A DNA stretch of 64,000 bases. Origin: Rathayibacter agropyri (lineage in GTDB: Bacteria; Actinomycetota; Actinomycetes; Actinomycetales; Microbacteriaceae). Numbering within the stretch: position 1 is the stretch's first letter; each line of letters begins with the position of its first letter. The stretch lies in NCBI RefSeq assembly GCF_013249015.1, contig NZ_JABRPL010000001.1, positions 356,218 through 420,217 of the forward strand, in the 5' to 3' direction. Positions 37,377-44,837 of the stretch are shown here, in pieces. The notes under the pieces were generated by a model. That model was given only the letters and a program-made list of their open reading frames with translations. It was not told where the DNA came from and ran no database searches. The position numbers were made by a program, and so were the translations under genes.

Positions 37377-39458
37377 TCAGACGTCGATGCGATCCCGCGA
37401 GAGCGACTCCGAACCGCGCACGATGAACTCCTTGCGTGGGGCGACGTCATTGCCCATCAGCAGCTCGAAAACGCGTCCCGCATTCTCGGCATCGGCCACG
37501 CGGACTCGGCGGAGCGTGCGGCGGGCGCGGTCCATTGTGGTCGTCGCCAACTGGTCCGCATCCATTTCACCCAGGCCCTTGTAGCGCTGGATCGGGTCCT
37601 GGTAGCGCCGGCCCGCCTTGCCCAGCGCGGCGAGGACGCTTTGCAGCTCCTTCTCGGAGTACGTGTAGATCGTCTCGTTCGGCTTCTTACCGGCGTTCAT
37701 GACGACGAGCCTGTGCAGTGGCGGCACGGCCGCGAAGACCCGGCCCGCCTCCACGAGCGGGCGCATGTAGCGGAAGAACAGAGTGAGCAGCAGGGTGCGG
37801 ATGTGCGCACCATCGACGTCGGCGTCGCTCATCAAAATGATCTTCCCGTAGCGGGCCGCCGGAAGATCGAACGAGCGGCCGGATCCCGCGCCGATCACCT
37901 GGATCATCGATGCGCACTCCGCGTTCGAGAGCATGTCGGCGATGCTGGCCTTCTGAGTGTTGAGGATTTTGCCGCGAATAGGCAGCAGCGCCTGATATTC
38001 GCTGTTGCGGGCGAGCTTCGCGGTGCCGAGAGCGGAATCGCCCTCGACGATGAAGAGTTCGCTGTTCTCGACGTCGTTGCTGCGGCAGTCCACGAGCTTG
38101 GCCGGTAGCGAGGACGATTCCAGTGCGTTCTTGCGGCGCTGCGTCTCCTTGTGCGCGCGGGCCGAGATGCGCGACTTCATCTCGGCGACGACCTTCTCGA
38201 GCAGCTGCGACATCTGCGCCTTGTCCTCTCGGCGGGTCGAGGAGAAGACTGCGCCCAGCGTCGAGGCGAGTGTGCTCGCGACGATCGCGCGCACCGCCGG
38301 CGTTCCGAGAACCTCCTTGGTCTGGCCCTCGAACTGCGGCTCGGGGAGACGCACGGTCAGCACCGCGGTGAGGCCTGCGAGCACGTCGTCCTTCTCGAGC
38401 TTGTCCGAGCCGACCTTGAGGCGCCGGGCGTTCGCCTCCACCTGCGAGCGGAGCAGCTTGAGCAGGCCCTGCTCGAACCCGGTCTGGTGCGTCCCGCCCT
38501 TGGGCGTCGAGATGATGTTGACGAAGCTGCGTAGGACGGTCTCGTAGCCGGTCCCCCAGCGCAGGGCGATGTCGACCTCACAGGTGCGTTCGACCTCGGT
38601 GGGCACCATCGCACCACCGGGGGTGAGCACGGGGACGGTCTCGGTGAAGGTACCCGAGCCGGTCAAGCGCAGGACGTCGGTCACCGGCGCGTCGGGGGCG
38701 AGGAACTCGACGAACTCCGAAATGCCGCCGTCGTAACGGAACATCTCGGCGCGGCGCTCCTGCGCCCGGTCGTCCACGATGTCGATAGTGAGCCCGGGGA
38801 CGAGGAACGCCGTCTGGCGCGCTCGAGTGACGAGGTCGTCCGACTGGAACGTCGCGCCCTTCGTGAAGATCTGGCGGTCGGCCCAGTAGCGCACGCGGGT
38901 GCCAGTGACTCCCTTGGCGACTTTTCCGATGACCGTGAGCTCGGAGCCGTTCTCGAACGGCGTGAACGGCGCGTCCGGAGTCGGCTCGCCGGCATCGGCG
39001 AAGCGCCCCGGTTCGCCGCGGTGGAAGGACATCCGGTACGTCCGGCCGTTGCGATCGACTTCGACGTCGAGCCGCTCTGACAGAGCGTTAACCACCGAGG
39101 CGCCGACGCCGTGCAGCCCGCCGGACGCGGCGTAGGAGCCGGAGCCGAACTTTCCGCCTGCGTGCAGCTTCGTGAAGACGACCTCGACCCCGGAGAGCCC
39201 GGTCTTGGGCTCACTATCGACGGGAATTCCGCGGGCACGGTCGCGGACTTCGACGCTCCCGTCGGCGTGCAGCAGCACGCTGATCTCGTTGCCGTGCCCC
39301 GCAAGGGCCTCATCGACGGAGTTGTCGATCACCTCCCACAGGCAGTGCATCAGTCCGCGCGAATCGGTCGAGCCGATGTACATACCCGGCCGCTTCCGGA
39401 CCGCCTCGAGACCCTCGAGGACGGAGAGGTGCCGGGCGTTGTAGTCGGTGGAGGCCAT
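37377..39458 (-). CDS. parE: DNA topoisomerase IV subunit B
   Basis: 693 residues. The GHKL ATPase domain shows VIDNSVDEALAGHGN (Asn for Mg), ASGGLHGVGASVVNALS and the transducer region. The TOPRIM domain shows LFIVEGDSALGTAKLARN and LMSDADVDGAHIRTLLLT. It hydrolyses ATP to drive strand passage with ParC. It converges on parC with a 36-bp gap that contains two 13-base copies of GAGCGCTCGCGCC. Confidence 0.94.
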   Translation of the reverse strand: MASTDYNARHLSVLEGLEAVRKRPGMYIGSTDSRGLMHCLWEVIDNSVDEALAGHGNEISVLLHADGSVEVRDRARGIPVDSEPKTGLSGVEVVFTKLHAGGKFGSGSYAASGGLHGVGASVVNALSERLDVEVDRNGRTYRMSFHRGEPGRFADAGEPTPDAPFTPFENGSELTVIGKVAKGVTGTRVRYWADRQIFTKGATFQSDDLVTRARQTAFLVPGLTIDIVDDRAQERRAEMFRYDGGISEFVEFLAPDAPVTDVLRLTGSGTFTETVPVLTPGGAMVPTEVERTCEVDIALRWGTGYETVLRSFVNIISTPKGGTHQTGFEQGLLKLLRSQVEANARRLKVGSDKLEKDDVLAGLTAVLTVRLPEPQFEGQTKEVLGTPAVRAIVASTLASTLGAVFSSTRREDKAQMSQLLEKVVAEMKSRISARAHKETQRRKNALESSSLPAKLVDCRSNDVENSELFIVEGDSALGTAKLARNSEYQALLPIRGKILNTQKASIADMLSNAECASMIQVIGAGSGRSFDLPAARYGKIILMSDADVDGAHIRTLLLTLFFRYMRPLVEAGRVFAAVPPLHRLVVMNAGKKPNETIYTYSEKELQSVLAALGKAGRRYQDPIQRYKGLGEMDADQLATTTMDRARRTLRRVRVADAENAGRVFELLMGNDVAPRKEFIVRGSESLSRDRIDV

Positions 39459-39647: not shown

Positions 39648-39881
39648 ATGTCGACCACAGCAACCCAGAATGGCGTGGACGAACTCGCCGGTGCCCACCA
39701 GCTCTCCGGCGCCGACCGCTGCGACAGCTGCGGTGCGCAGGCATACATCCGAGTGGTGGTAAACAACGGAGAACTGCTGTTCTGCGCGCACCACGGTAAG
39801 AAGTACCAGGAAAAGCTCTCCAGCATCGCCCAGAGCTGGCATGACGAGTCCGCCCGGCTCTTCGAGGAGCAGCGCCCCTAG
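39648..39881 (+). CDS. Small CxxC protein of the DUF7455 type
   Basis: 77 residues. RCDSCGAQAYIRVVVNNGELLFCAHHGKKY contains CxxC and CxHH likely to bind zinc. CAGGAGGCC precedes the ATG. This small protein accompanies rpoD/sigA in many actinobacteria and its role is unknown; an RNA-polymerase link is only suggested by the location. Confidence 0.85.
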   Translation: MSTTATQNGVDELAGAHQLSGADRCDSCGAQAYIRVVVNNGELLFCAHHGKKYQEKLSSIAQSWHDESARLFEEQRP

Positions 39882-39937: not shown

Positions 39938-40651
39938 CTACCGACCGACACCGAGCCGCTTCGCGATCACATTGCGGGCGGCTCGTGCCGTGTCATCCAC
40001 CGCGCGAATCCGCTCGTCGCTGGTCGCGTAGGCGTCGCCAAGGGCGCGCCGAAGGATGATATCGGCCAGCACGGGGTTCTTCGCCAGCAGGGGGCCGTGC
40101 ACATGCGTACCGAGCAGACCCCCCACGGAGTAGCCCTCGTAGCCTGCTCCGTCGCCGGTCCCGTGGAGGACACGGCCGAGCGCCTGCTCCGCGGAGATGC
40201 CGGTCATTCGGCGCTCGTGGTTCTCGAAGCCGATGAGCACGCCATCCGCCGTCTCGACCACGAGGTCGTCTGCGACCCGATCTCCGGCGACTGAACGGCC
40301 TGGAAACAGTCCAATGCCCTCGAGTACGCCCGAGGGCGTGACGAGGGACTGCGCCATCAGCTCCCAGCCGGCTCCGACGGCGACGACCTGAGTGCCCTCG
40401 GCAACCCAGGCGTGCAGGGTCGAGGCAACCGTGCGCAGAAACTCGAGGACGGCCGGGAGGTCCTCCTCTGCACCGGTGCCCGCGACCAGCACGTCGGGTC
40501 GCACCTCGGCGTCCTCCGGTCTGGCGAGCGGGACGACCTCGGCATCCGCTCCGGCCCAGCGAGCGCGAGCGGCGAGGACACGCGCGTTCGCGGCGTCGCC
40601 ATTGGTATCGAGGACGTCGGGGGCGAGTACCGCGATGCGCAGTGTGGTCAT
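39938..40651 (-). CDS. GatD-like glutamine amidotransferase fold protein lacking the catalytic Cys
   Basis: 237 residues of the CobB/CobQ-like GATase fold that in other Gram-positives forms the GatD half of MurT-GatD, which amidates D-Glu of lipid II. The nucleophile position reads VVAVGAGWELMA (A94, where S. aureus GatD has Cys94), and the whole protein contains no cysteine. The catalytic His region is kept (GTHVHGPLLAKNP, H185), as is GFENHERRMTG. It overlaps the MurT-like gene by ATGA. Glutaminase activity is therefore not expected; a structural or amine-binding role is an inference. Confidence 0.82.
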   Translation of the reverse strand: MTTLRIAVLAPDVLDTNGDAANARVLAARARWAGADAEVVPLARPEDAEVRPDVLVAGTGAEEDLPAVLEFLRTVASTLHAWVAEGTQVVAVGAGWELMAQSLVTPSGVLEGIGLFPGRSVAGDRVADDLVVETADGVLIGFENHERRMTGISAEQALGRVLHGTGDGAGYEGYSVGGLLGTHVHGPLLAKNPVLADIILRRALGDAYATSDERIRAVDDTARAARNVIAKRLGVGR

Positions 40652-41910
40652 TCCGTCTCCTCACGGTTGCTGGTGAGTTGAAGGTGGGAGCGTGTGCGGC
40701 GCATCGAGTCTGCCGAGAAGACGATCGTCTTGCGCCCGATCGTCGGCGTCGGCAGGGCGAGGAAGCCGTCGAGCGCTCGTCCGAGGTCCTCGTCCACCGC
40801 GTCGATTGCGACTCCGTCGTAGCGCAGATGCAGCGCGGCTTCGTGGGCTTGTGATCCGGAGACGACGCGGACGCGCCGCAGAACGGAGGTGTCAACGGGC
40901 CAGAAGTACGACGGATCGCGGACGTCAGAGCCGATCGCGAGCATGATCTGCTCAGTGCCCTCCGGAATCTCGGCAATGTTGAGACGGTAGCTCGCCGGGT
41001 TCTGCACCAGGACGAACTCCACCTGCTGGCCGCGAACGGTCACAACTTCGCCCCGGCCGAAGACGGGGGCGATCGACGAGAGGGCGTTGGCGGTCGCGGC
41101 GGGATCGAAGCGCTCGGCGAGCACCGCCCGAGCGGTCGAGATAGCCGCTGCGGCATCGACGGCGTAGTGGACGCCCCGGGCCGGGAGGCGGACGGTGAGC
41201 GCGTCCCCGTCACTCCTGATCTCAGCGGCATCCCCCTGGGTCGACTCCACGACAGTGGTGGCCCGGGCGCCGCCCTTGGCGTCGGACGCGGAGCCGAGAC
41301 CGCCCGGGAAACCGGCGCGGACCGAGTCGGAGACGCCGTACCAACGGACCATGTCGTCGGAGAGACCGCTCGCGATGTCAGCGACGTGCCGATCGTCGGC
41401 GTTCAGCACCACCCGTCCGGTCGCCCGGGCAGCGATCACCGCGAGCATTCGCGCGACCATCGCGGGGTCGAAGAAACGGTCGATCTGATCGACCACCACA
41501 TTCGTGAGCAACACCACGCGAGGACGCAGACGTGGCGCGAGCCGCGCACCGTGCCCCTCGTCCATCTCGAGAACGGCGATGTCCGCATCGATCCGGCCGC
41601 GGAGGTCGGCTCGCTCAAGCAGGGCAGAGGTAAGCCCCTGGGCGATATTCGCGGTCGAGGGATTGGTAAACACACGGACGCCGTGCGCGCGGAGCACGGC
41701 GACGAGCATCTTCGTCGTCGTCGACTTGCCCGCGGATCCCGTCACGACGACGAGTCCCTCCGGAAAGCCGTTCAGCACAGCGGGAAGGAAGCCTGGTGCG
41801 AGGCGGTTCACGACGAGCCCGGGTACGGCGGATCCCCCGCCTGGCTTTCGCACCCGCGCTGCGAACCGGGCGGCCCTTCCCAGGAGGACCGCCGGAGCGT
41901 AGCGGATCAC
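40648..41910 (-). CDS. MurT-like Mur ligase without the zinc ribbon
   Basis: 420 residues of the Mur ligase superfamily, closest in layout to MurT. The P-loop GSAGKSTTT (58-66), LEMDEGHGARLAPRL, TNVVVDQIDRF, LNADDRHVAD and APVFGRGE are present. The four-Cys zinc ribbon that sits in the MurT central domain is missing: the protein has no Cys and the segment around residues 192-225 is Gly/Ala/Ser-rich. The usual NPAGFN and ADGrDvSWiWDvDFE motifs are altered to NPASYRLN and GSDVRDPSYFWPVD. GTG 41910 starts four bases after the sigA stop. It would activate a carboxylate with ATP; the amine partner is unknown. Confidence 0.82.
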   Translation of the reverse strand: MIRYAPAVLLGRAARFAARVRKPGGGSAVPGLVVNRLAPGFLPAVLNGFPEGLVVVTGSAGKSTTTKMLVAVLRAHGVRVFTNPSTANIAQGLTSALLERADLRGRIDADIAVLEMDEGHGARLAPRLRPRVVLLTNVVVDQIDRFFDPAMVARMLAVIAARATGRVVLNADDRHVADIASGLSDDMVRWYGVSDSVRAGFPGGLGSASDAKGGARATTVVESTQGDAAEIRSDGDALTVRLPARGVHYAVDAAAAISTARAVLAERFDPAATANALSSIAPVFGRGEVVTVRGQQVEFVLVQNPASYRLNIAEIPEGTEQIMLAIGSDVRDPSYFWPVDTSVLRRVRVVSGSQAHEAALHLRYDGVAIDAVDEDLGRALDGFLALPTPTIGRKTIVFSADSMRRTRSHLQLTSNREETE

Positions 41911-41914
41911 CGGC

Positions 41915-43228
41915 CTACTCGAGGTAGTCGCGGAGTGACTGCGAGCGGGACGGATGGCGCAACTTAGCCATCGTCTTGGACTCGATCTGGCGGATCCGCT
42001 CTCGCGTGACGCCGAACGTGTCGCCGATCTGATCGAGCGTCTTGGGCATGCCATCACCGAGGCCGAAGCGCATGCGGATAACGCCCGCTTCGCGCTCTGA
42101 CAGCGAGTCGAGCAGCGACTCCAGCTGCTTCTGCAGCATGGTGAAGCCGACCGCGTCGGCCGGGACGACAGCCTCGGTGTCCTCGATGAGGTCACCGAAC
42201 TCGCTGTCGCCGTCTTCGCCCAGGGGTGTGTGCAGCGAGATCGGCTCACGGCCGTACTTCTGCACTTCGATGACCTTCTCCGGAGTCATGTCGAGCTCGC
42301 GCGAGAGCTCCTCGGGAGTGGGCTCGCGGCCCAGATCTTGCAGCATCTGGCGTTGCACGCGGGCGAGCTTGTTAATGACCTCGACCATGTGCACCGGGAT
42401 GCGGATGGTGCGTGCTTGGTCGGCCATCGCGCGGGTGATCGCCTGGCGGATCCACCACGTGGCGTAGGTCGAGAACTTGAAGCCCTTGGTGTAGTCGAAC
42501 TTCTCGACGGCACGGATGAGGCCGAGGTTGCCCTCCTGGATGAGATCGAGGAACTGCATCCCACGACCGGTGTAGCGCTTGGCGAGGCTGACCACGAGTC
42601 GGAGGTTCGCCCCGAGGAGGTGGCTCTTCGCGCGCTGGCCGTCCTTCGCGACCCAGCGCAACTCGCGGACGAGTTCAGGACTGAGCTCGGACGAGTTCGC
42701 AAGCTTGTCCTCGGCGAAGAGACCGGCCTCGATGCGCATCGCGAGCTCGACCTCCTCAGCCGCGTTCAGGAGCGCGACCTTGCCGATCTGCTTCAGGTAG
42801 TCCTTGACCGGGTCGGCCGTCGCGCCCGTGATCGCGGTCGAGTAGACCGGGACCTCGTCGTCCTCGCCGCCGAAGGAGAGGACGAGCGCGCCGCTCGGAA
42901 GCGGCTCCTCCGGCGTCGTCACGGCGGCGACGGGCGCGTCCGGAATCTCCACGTCATCCTTGGTCTCGGTGTCCTCGACGACAACCTCGGTCTCGTCGTC
43001 CTCAGCCACCTCGGCCTCGTCGGGCTCGACCGCCTCCGTTGGCTCCTCGTCAGCGTCGGCGGGAGTAGCGGCCTTTGTGCTCGCGCGCGATCGAGTCGTC
43101 TTGGCGGCGGTCGTCTTCGTCGCCGCATTCTTGGCCGCGGGCTTGCGCGTCGCGGGCTTCTTAGTGGTCGTCGTCACGTCGTCATCGACGGCGTCGAGCG
43201 TTGCGGTCTTGGTAGCTCTGGTGGCCAT
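41915..43228 (-). CDS. sigA: Primary sigma factor (SigA/RpoD)
   Basis: 437 residues. An N-terminal Lys/Ala/Thr-rich then acidic tail (about 110 residues) is followed by region 1.2 ([17 protein letters not shown]), 2.1-2.4 ([36 protein letters not shown]), region 3 and region 4.2 ([29 protein letters not shown]). It directs RNA polymerase to housekeeping promoters. AGAGGTG precedes the ATG. The MurT/GatD-like genes follow directly and are probably read through from sigA. Confidence 0.97.
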
Positions 43229-43508: not shown

Positions 43509-44837
43509 TCAGCGCCCCGCGCGGCCGCGGCGCAAACGGTCATTCAGTGCAACCCAGAGCGGTGCCACGGTTATTCCCTCATCCTCTGCGAGGCGGCGTC
43601 GGGTGCGGCGCCGAGAAACAAGCAGCCCCACGATCCCGGCGCCAATCACGACGTACTGGACGCACCAGGCGACGCGGAAGTGCTCGAGGGAGTAGGTCTG
43701 CTCCGACGACGCGCCAGGGCCCGCGAGAGCGTCCAAGATCAGGCCGATCGCGAACATCATCGTGAAGCTCGCGAGGAATCCGCCGACGTTGACGACACCG
43801 TTCGCCGCACCCAGACTCCGCGACGGGTTGAAAGTACGGGCGAAGTCGAAGCCGATCATCGAGCCCGGGCCGCCCGCTCCCACGACGATGAGGAGGAGCA
43901 CGACAAGCCAGTACGGCGGGACGCCCGGCCAGAGCAGCACCGCGGTCCAGGCAAGGCCCATCGCCGAGACGATCCCCAGCACCAAGTTGCTGCGGCGCGT
44001 CGGGTAGCGCGCGGTGAGCACTCCCAGGACAGGGCCGACCACCATGCCGGCAACGACAACGATCGTCAGGGTGGGTGCCGCGACCGCCGGAGGCAGCTGG
44101 ATCGCGTAGACGAGGAACGGGTAGCCCCAGAGCAGCGTGAAGACCGTGCCCGAGGACTGCGTCGTGAAATGCGACCAGAAGCCGAGCTGTGTCCCGGGCC
44201 GGCTCAGACTCACTCCGAGTTGCGCGACAGTCGCCCGCAGCGTCGTCGGTACCGGGACGACGTGCTCCGCGCGCGGTGGCACATCGCTGATCAGGAAGAG
44301 AACGGCGAGGAACGCGAGAGCGCCGAAGCCCGCGGCAGAGAGGAACGCAGGAGTCCAGCCGAAACTGTGCAGAACGGCGGCGAAGGGAAGGGCTGAGAGG
44401 ATTTGACCCATCTGACCGATGTTTCCGGTCCACTGCGACAGCTGGGGGACGATCGGGCCGCTGAACCAGGTCACCGTGAGGCGGATCACGGAGGTGAAAA
44501 TCGCGGCATCGCCCGCTCCCAGAAGAACGCGCCCGAGGACAGCGACGCTGATGCTCGGCGCGACCGCCACCACGACCTGTCCCGCCATCATCAGCGCCGT
44601 CCCGCTGAGGATGAGTGCGCGCGGCCCGAAGCGGTCGATCAGGATCCCGATAGGGATTTGCATCCCCGCATACACGATCAGCTGGACGACCGCGAGGGTC
44701 GAGAGGACCGCCGCAGTAACTCCGAATCGCTCCGCCGCATCAATGCCCGCCACGCCAAGGGTCGTGCGATTGAGAACGGCAACCAGGTACGCGAACGCTC
44801 CGGTGCCGAAGACGAACCAGGCTCGACCATCTCGCAC
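43509..44837 (-). CDS. MFS transporter
   Basis: 442 residues with twelve predicted transmembrane helices. QIPIGILIDRFGPRALILSG is the loop 2-3 signature, and the N-terminal GTGAFAYLVAVLNRTTLGVAG resembles nitrate/hexuronate-type facilitators. The GTG start is preceded by TAGGAT after seven bases, indicating a leaderless transcript. It is a single gene between sigA and the PAC2 gene; the substrate is unknown. Confidence 0.87.
   Translation of the reverse strand: MRDGRAWFVFGTGAFAYLVAVLNRTTLGVAGIDAAERFGVTAAVLSTLAVVQLIVYAGMQIPIGILIDRFGPRALILSGTALMMAGQVVVAVAPSISVAVLGRVLLGAGDAAIFTSVIRLTVTWFSGPIVPQLSQWTGNIGQMGQILSALPFAAVLHSFGWTPAFLSAAGFGALAFLAVLFLISDVPPRAEHVVPVPTTLRATVAQLGVSLSRPGTQLGFWSHFTTQSSGTVFTLLWGYPFLVYAIQLPPAVAAPTLTIVVVAGMVVGPVLGVLTARYPTRRSNLVLGIVSAMGLAWTAVLLWPGVPPYWLVVLLLIVVGAGGPGSMIGFDFARTFNPSRSLGAANGVVNVGGFLASFTMMFAIGLILDALAGPGASSEQTYSLEHFRVAWCVQYVVIGAGIVGLLVSRRRTRRRLAEDEGITVAPLWVALNDRLRRGRAGR

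Follow-up and report, generated by a model that had tools for sequence, protein, structure and literature searches.

What does a MurT-GatD pair do once its amidotransferase subunit has lost the catalytic cysteine? The question is raised by a 64,000-nucleotide stretch of Rathayibacter agropyri DNA (contig NZ_JABRPL010000001.1, positions 356,218 to 420,217; referred to here as the window), the minus strand of which carries the gene order sigA-murT-gatD-parE. A note made from the sequence alone (the original prediction) had assigned a MurT-GatD layout to the two overlapping genes located directly 3' of sigA, and this layout, including an overlap of 4 nucleotides, is seen in the open reading frames (ORFs). 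From the sequence comparisons presented below, we consider it probable, on balance, that the ATP-dependent MurT-like ligase, together with a pseudo-GatD scaffold, would attach an amino acid of the cross-bridge to a carboxyl of the precursor, probably that of D-Glu in type B peptidoglycan.

Loss of the catalytic cysteine from the GatD-like protein

phmmer and Foldseek identified MurT-GatD complexes as the nearest solved structures to both window proteins, and Pfam profiles matched the pair with E values of 7.7e-13 (GATase_3), 1.1e-13 (Mur_ligase_M), and 6.1e-5 (MurT_C, just under the cut-off). The AlphaFold models were weak (mean predicted local distance difference test scores of 67.8 and 65.1 for the MurT-like and GatD-like proteins, respectively), and their fold match alone was used. 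The pair scored below the NCBIfam equivalog cut-offs of NF045635 (85.2 versus 800 bits) and NF045636 (66.2 versus 400 bits). The latter cut-off was passed by none of 198 genomes of the order and is hence not decisive for the window pair.

The translations confirmed that cysteine is absent from both proteins. The original prediction had placed Ala94 at the catalytic position; an ungapped phmmer alignment to Staphylococcus aureus GatD and MAFFT alignments with cysteine-containing homologues instead paired S. aureus Cys94 with Gly93, Ala94 being paired with the next residue (residues 93 to 95 are G-A-G). The remainder of the catalytic triad is present in the window as His185 (His189 in S. aureus GatD) and Asp332 (Asp349 in S. 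aureus MurT). The GatD catalytic cysteine expected of an isoglutaminyl synthase, replaced by Gly93 in the window, was also missing from 137 of the 159 genomes of the family Microbacteriaceae in which GatD was read. Because this column is free of cysteine in 137 family genomes and contains it in 22 others of the family as well as in 120 MurT-linked loci drawn from the order and phylum, the loss is not a sequencing accident. Among the cysteine-less GatDs of the family, the site is occupied by G, A, S, T, N, or H, with Gly in 100 of 140 aligned loci. His185 is kept in 100 of these loci and gone from 40, and three GatDs match at just 20 to 30 bits. The alignment excluded repeats (L013-L015, L047, L077, L148, L149, and L152) and locus L144 of genome G052, the GatD of which was read outside it.

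In S. aureus, replacement of Cys94 by glycine, the residue found in the window, abolishes the use of glutamine and leaves the use of ammonia at pH 8.5 unaffected, and MurT still requires GatD when the latter carries C94G (PMC3266927; this and all other publications are cited from extracts of their text). According to the same extracts, ammonia is not used at pH 7.5 (PMC3266927). GatD C94S is, like C94G, inactive with glutamine (PMC6113224, PMC3266927).

Conservation of the MurT-like ligase

The MurT-like protein belongs to the Mur ligase superfamily, as it contains a Mur_ligase_M domain with intact catalytic motifs. Its ATP site comprises the P-loop GSAGKS and E115, the counterpart of the Mg-binding Glu108, and alignments showed that D117/E118, D141, and R145 are kept as well. 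The original prediction had described two MurT motifs as altered, and the changes are real, GTNGKT being converted to GSAGKS (still a P-loop), KNP to QNP, and DGRDxSWxxD to DVRDPSYFWP. The zinc ribbon is absent from the window MurT, as had also been claimed; this absence carries little weight, because the CxxC...CxxC motif is also missing from 54 of the 61 cysteine-containing MurTs drawn from the order (it is present in 7/61, compared to 39/59 in the phylum draw and 5/22 in the family). The extracts of PMC6113224 restrict the Cys4 zinc ribbon to a subset of MurTs.

K62 and E115 were found in 138 of 139 aligned cysteine-less MurTs of the family, the remaining one having a gap, and K62, E115, E118, N137, R145, and R286 are near-invariant across these loci. 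The nearest named genome is that of Rathayibacter iranicus (88% and 92% identity for the GatD-like and MurT-like proteins, respectively), which was used as a stand-in for the window's own genome in whole-genome searches. Comparison with this genome gave ratios of nonsynonymous to synonymous substitution rates (dN/dS) of 0.079 for murT, 0.116 for gatD, 0.025 for parE, and 0.032 for sigA. The pair is under purifying selection, the ligase half being constrained and the glutaminase half being constrained only as its partner.

The window pair resembles the MurT-GatD complexes of S. aureus and Streptococcus pneumoniae in its overlapping paired genes, its fold (from sequence and Foldseek), the P-loop, the Mg-binding Glu (E108/E115), and the conserved His189/His185 and Asp349/Asp332 residues. 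It differs from them by the lack of the catalytic cysteine and of the zinc ribbon, by the changed C-terminal motifs, and by its location beside sigA. MurC to MurF and the archaeal pseudomurein ligases, which have the same fold, form ATP-dependent amide bonds with amino acids. Mur and pseudomurein ligases were among the Foldseek matches of the MurT-like protein. Unlike these enzymes, MurT pairs with a GatD-type partner, and its N-terminus is shorter than that of MurC to MurF (PMC6113224).

Distribution of cysteine-less pairs

A MurT-like profile matched 215 of 249 Microbacteriaceae genomes at 1e-8. Thirteen genomes with weak matches only (1e-8 to 2e-12) were left out and taken to contain ordinary dcw Mur ligases, a call based on the absence of GatD from the six that were read and on partial matches in clusters. 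MurT is present in 202 genomes and absent from 47, although absences may reflect gaps in draft genomes; 33 of the 47 were rescanned with a broad profile, the other 14 being named by elimination on the assumption that the draws of 249 genomes were identical. This result differs from an earlier survey, the extracts of which describe murT-gatD as universally present in Actinobacteria (PMC6085368).

The GatD partner was read in 159 of the 202 genomes. Those without the cysteine comprise 120 genomes with the window kind of pair, referred to as R-type, and 17 with the zinc-ribbon kind (zinc-type), the cysteine being present in the other 22. The remainder of the 202 comprise G238 and G340, from which a usable GatD was missing (a match of 20.6 bits for G340), and 41 R-type genomes outside the set fetched. 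Because some pairs were fetched twice (L001/L047, L064/L077), the loci outnumber the genomes in these counts. The cysteine-less order loci L150, L151, and L153 were counted with the family because they are located beside sigA. Among the MurT-linked loci drawn from the order and the phylum, 120 had the cysteine (122 cysteine-containing loci outside the family minus L154 and L155, which have no MurT) and five, all of the zinc-ribbon kind, lacked it. The genomes of these five branch far from the family in an RpoB tree, and an amino-acid-kinase-family gene is located near four of the five pairs (L314, L316, L321, and L322). Outside the family, cysteine-less zinc-type MurT and GatD also occur as one open frame of 741 to 759 residues (L314:2564-4840, L316:2409-4631, and L320:2823-5045).

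The cysteine-less pair is therefore distributed as a mosaic inside the family, plus five loci outside it. The suggestion that cysteine loss tracks with type B peptidoglycan would hold only in part, given the 22 of 249 genomes that have a cysteine-containing pair only, the 47 MurT-less genomes, and the five outside loci. Universal loss of the cysteine in the family was dropped as a proposal after cysteine-containing pairs turned up in 22 genomes.

A second, intact pair, which the original prediction had named as evidence that would speak against it, was not found in R. iranicus, which has one match to each family. None of the 159 genomes read combines a cysteine-less with a cysteine-containing pair (G266 being represented by one of its two MurT copies). 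Two cysteine-less MurT/GatD paralogues are present in each of three genomes, G319 (L076, L077), G355 (L078, L079), and G310 (L112, L113); loci L076, L078, L112, and L113 are devoid of sigA.

Contents of the interval following sigA

sigA was found in 142 of 152 cysteine-less family loci, at 400 bp or less from the ligase gene in 138 of them, and was never beside a cysteine-containing pair (0/22 family loci and 0/61 order loci). In 15 of the 17 cysteine-containing genomes examined, sigA is directly followed by DUF7455/parE. Other genes following sigA in cysteine-containing genomes were an IS30 transposase in G376 (L364:2848-4299, plus strand) and, directly adjacent, a MurE-type ligase in G347 (L378:1-1497, minus strand).

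A tree of 72 chosen MurT rows contained two changes of cysteine state, with Shimodaira-Hasegawa-like approximate likelihood ratio test supports of 100% for the R clade and 99% for the zinc-type clade. Since R-type and zinc-type MurTs form separate clades and both are found after sigA, two lineages that lost the cysteine share this interval, designated the slot. Part of the canonical cysteine-containing pairs of actinomycetes form the sister group of the R-type MurTs in the tree. The canonical pairs share with the R-type the absence of the zinc motif (54/61 order loci and 17/22 family loci) and differ by the retention of the cysteine and by their location away from sigA.

In MurT-less genomes, the slot is occupied by a gene encoding a protein of ca. 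235 residues belonging to the CofE (F420-0:glutamate ligase) family, with PF01996 scores of 29.6 to 51.5 bits for the six proteins read. Known CofE attaches L-glutamate via an amide bond and has a fold unrelated to that of MurT; the slot protein is a putative amide ligase, and a search for a solved structure with the CofE-like alignment gave no match at an E value of 0.01. The close CofE-like form was detected in 37 of the 249 genomes, corresponding to 37/47 MurT-less and 0/202 MurT genomes, and three MurT genomes (G253, G320, and G343) have a weaker relative. The mutual exclusion of MurT and the close form gave Fisher P values of 2.6e-35, or 2.2e-31 if the three weak relatives are counted, both of which ignore shared ancestry. 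Among the 30 CofE-like loci fetched, 28 have sigA within 400 bp and 26 have an ATP-grasp gene (PF14397) nearby. CofE-like genomes stand beside MurT genomes at three places in the RpoB tree (G428/G384, G201 plus G344/G037, and G258/G304). Both ligases are missing from G219, G251, and G318, which have the order sigA-DUF7455-parE, and from G249, which has a transporter gene in the slot. The weaker CofE-like gene accompanies the pair in G320 (sigA-cofE-murT-gatD) and in G253 (cofE-murT-gatD; loci L174 and L175), and a CofE-like gene behind the outside locus L320 scored 25.4 bits, at the cut-off.

Behind the ligase gene, 28 of the 80 wide MurT loci have alanine-racemase-family genes (26 of them both of two genes), as do 5 of 9 wide loci from MurT-less genomes. 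The two genes, rac1 and rac2, are adjacent; their mutual order is constant in all loci that show both, and the orientation varies. Several loci in the racemase alignment are the same genome fetched twice. The column of the pyridoxal phosphate-binding lysine contains no lysine in the 38 of 39 rac1 rows that have a letter there (row L088 is cut at this site, and L391, L392, and L394 seem misaligned), and SYG is kept in 39/39 rows. The lysine is kept in all 42 rac2 rows, and the aligned VSYG segment, which carries the catalytic tyrosine, is missing from all 42 (in rows L108 and L397, from one genome, SYG occurs at another point of the frame). Judging from these complementary losses, the two products would complete one active site only as a heterodimer; our literature search found no publication on a heterodimeric alanine racemase. 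A diaminobutyrate transaminase gene adjoins the ligase gene in G220 and is located within 2 kb of it in G257 and G418 (CofE-like ligase) and in G372 (MurT).

Proposed function and alternatives

The walls of Rathayibacter and Cryobacterium are presumably of the B2 type. Type B cross-links start at D-Glu and not at the position-3 diamino acid; this is described for Clavibacter, where D-diaminobutyrate (D-DAB) links D-Glu to D-Ala (PMC9603630). The extracts also report a B2-type wall with DAB in Rhodoluna (PMC4156110) and D-Orn, L-Lys, or DAB in Microbacterium walls (PMC10757982). No enzyme named as attaching the bridge was found in the extracts of the literature on MurT/GatD, type B peptidoglycan, and CofE-like ligases.

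We propose that the MurT-like ligase would activate the lipid-linked precursor by phosphorylation of D-Glu at its alpha-carboxyl, and that a free amino acid, a D-diamino acid in the case of B2-type walls, would then supply the amino group in place of ammonia. The product would be a side arm, which a transpeptidase would later join to D-Ala4 of another chain to form the type B cross-link. The GatD-like partner would be kept as a scaffold devoid of glutaminase function. MurT would be an obvious starting point for such a ligase, since the alpha-carboxyl of D-Glu is the group on which the known enzyme acts. The dead glutaminase and, in other genomes, the presence in the slot of an amino-acid ligase family, racemases, and diaminobutyrate transaminase fit the joining of a D-diamino acid to a carboxyl of the wall. 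The contents of the slot and the C94G precedent provide circumstantial support for the bridge ligase with an inactive GatD scaffold that the original prediction had put forward, and we infer amino-acid ligation as the reaction, D-Glu as the acceptor, and the choice of the amino acid. More tentatively, the sigA-parE interval could be an exchangeable cassette for the type B cross-bridge, comprising one of two unrelated amide ligases (a CofE-like protein, or a MurT/pseudo-GatD pair of at least two separate origins), often in combination with a two-subunit racemase making the D-diamino acid.

Several observations weigh against a bridge ligase. Twenty-two of the 249 family genomes have a cysteine-containing pair only (the slot is empty in 15 of the 17 examined) and 10 have neither ligase; if these genomes specify type B walls, another enzyme must therefore act there. 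Cysteine-less zinc-type pairs exist at five loci outside the family, and the kinase-family gene near four of them would also fit a source of ammonia. The racemase genes are absent from the Rathayibacter slot and from 30 close relatives (L046-L075; flanks of 1.5 kb). The diaminobutyrate transaminase failed as a family-wide marker: it is present in 47 of 249 genomes and missing from R. iranicus, the wall of which we take to contain DAB. Of these 47 genomes, 30 have R- or zinc-type MurT (including some with an unread GatD), 12 have the CofE-like ligase, 2 have a cysteine-containing pair, and 3 have neither. Finally, the exclusivity between MurT and the CofE-like ligase is inflated by shared ancestry.

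The pair may alternatively still amidate D-Glu, or another wall carboxyl, with ammonia that is free or delivered by another enzyme, the GatD-like protein being a needed scaffold. S. aureus MurT does so at pH 8.5 in the presence of GatD C94G, on which it remains dependent (PMC3266927). The window retains His185 and Asp332, in keeping with this scheme, as is the kinase-family gene mentioned above. We nevertheless consider it unlikely, although worth weighing, since S. aureus does not use ammonia at pH 7.5 according to the same extracts, since the alpha-carboxyl of D-Glu is occupied by the bridge in type B walls, and since an amino acid is indicated by the neighboring racemase and transaminase genes and by the CofE-like ligase that shares this slot. 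It is also quite unlikely that the amine is joined to a different carboxyl, belonging to another residue of the stem peptide or to a glutamyl substrate unrelated to peptidoglycan: the nearest kin act on the D-Glu of lipid II and the racemase-family neighbors suggest D-amino acids, even though relatives of MurT make several kinds of peptide bonds and the pseudomurein ligases pMurC and pMurE are among its matches.

Decay of the pair into a remnant would account for the drift of the GatD active-site residues and for the three GatDs matching at just 20 to 30 bits. This is very improbable in view of the near-invariant ligase residues, of dN/dS values of 0.08 to 0.12, and of the retention of the pair in assemblies, possibly incomplete, of 1.1 to 1.5 Mb. 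Persistence of the glutaminase through another nucleophile could be envisioned from the S, T, N, or H found at the site in some loci and is hardly credible, since Gly occupies the site in 100 of the 140 aligned cysteine-less family loci, including the window, and since neither C94S nor C94G supports glutamine use in S. aureus (PMC6113224, PMC3266927). The coordinates of the features are listed in Table 1.

Table 1. Coordinates of the features in the window and in loci from other genomes
Feature	Position	Strand	Remarks
MurT-like Mur ligase	40648..41910	-	GTG start, 420 aa; Mur_ligase_M, MurT_C; phmmer and Foldseek matches to MurT structures
GatD-like pseudo-glutaminase	39938..40651	-	237 aa; GATase_3; GatD structures nearest
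Gly93 codon, site of the catalytic cysteine	40373..40375	-	Alignment to S. aureus GatD Cys94 and homologues; computed from ORF
His185 codon, kept (S. aureus His189)	40097..40099	-	Alignments; computed from ORF
MurT Asp332 codon, kept (S. aureus Asp349)	40915..40917	-	Alignments; computed from ORF
MurT P-loop GSAGKS (canonical GTNGKT)	41722..41739	-	Alignments; computed from ORF
sigA, upstream border of the putative cassette	41915..43228	-	ORF, translation
parE-like topoisomerase subunit, downstream border	37377..39458	-	ORF; border common to many loci
Small DUF7455 gene, convergent, between gatD and parE	39699..39875	+	PF24254, 82.9 bits; position recurs in many loci
MFS transporter gene upstream of sigA	43545-44837	-	Place shared by many family loci
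CofE-like ligase in sigA slot, MurT-less genomes	L366:760-1497	-	
CofE-like ligase in sigA slot, MurT-less genome G220	L386:4295-5002	+	
CofE-like ligase in sigA slot, MurT-less genomes	L387:2653-3351	+	
CofE-like ligase in sigA slot, MurT-less genomes	L392:2569-3270	+	
Diaminobutyrate--2-oxoglutarate transaminase between sigA and CofE-like gene, G220	L386:2945-4267	+	
Adjacent racemase-family gene pair	L396:8741-10824	-	Complementary losses; same pair also in L105, L106, L108, L111, L391, L397, L398, L400, L459, L460, L466-L468, L470, L471, L473, L475-L479

Implications for type B peptidoglycan

The cysteine-less pair is a candidate enzyme for a step of type B wall synthesis to which the extracts of the literature found assign no named enzyme. 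The pair, the CofE-like family, and the racemase pair provide concrete candidates for the synthesis of the type B bridge. If the proposed function is true, an amidotransferase becomes an amino-acid ligase through losing its glutaminase.

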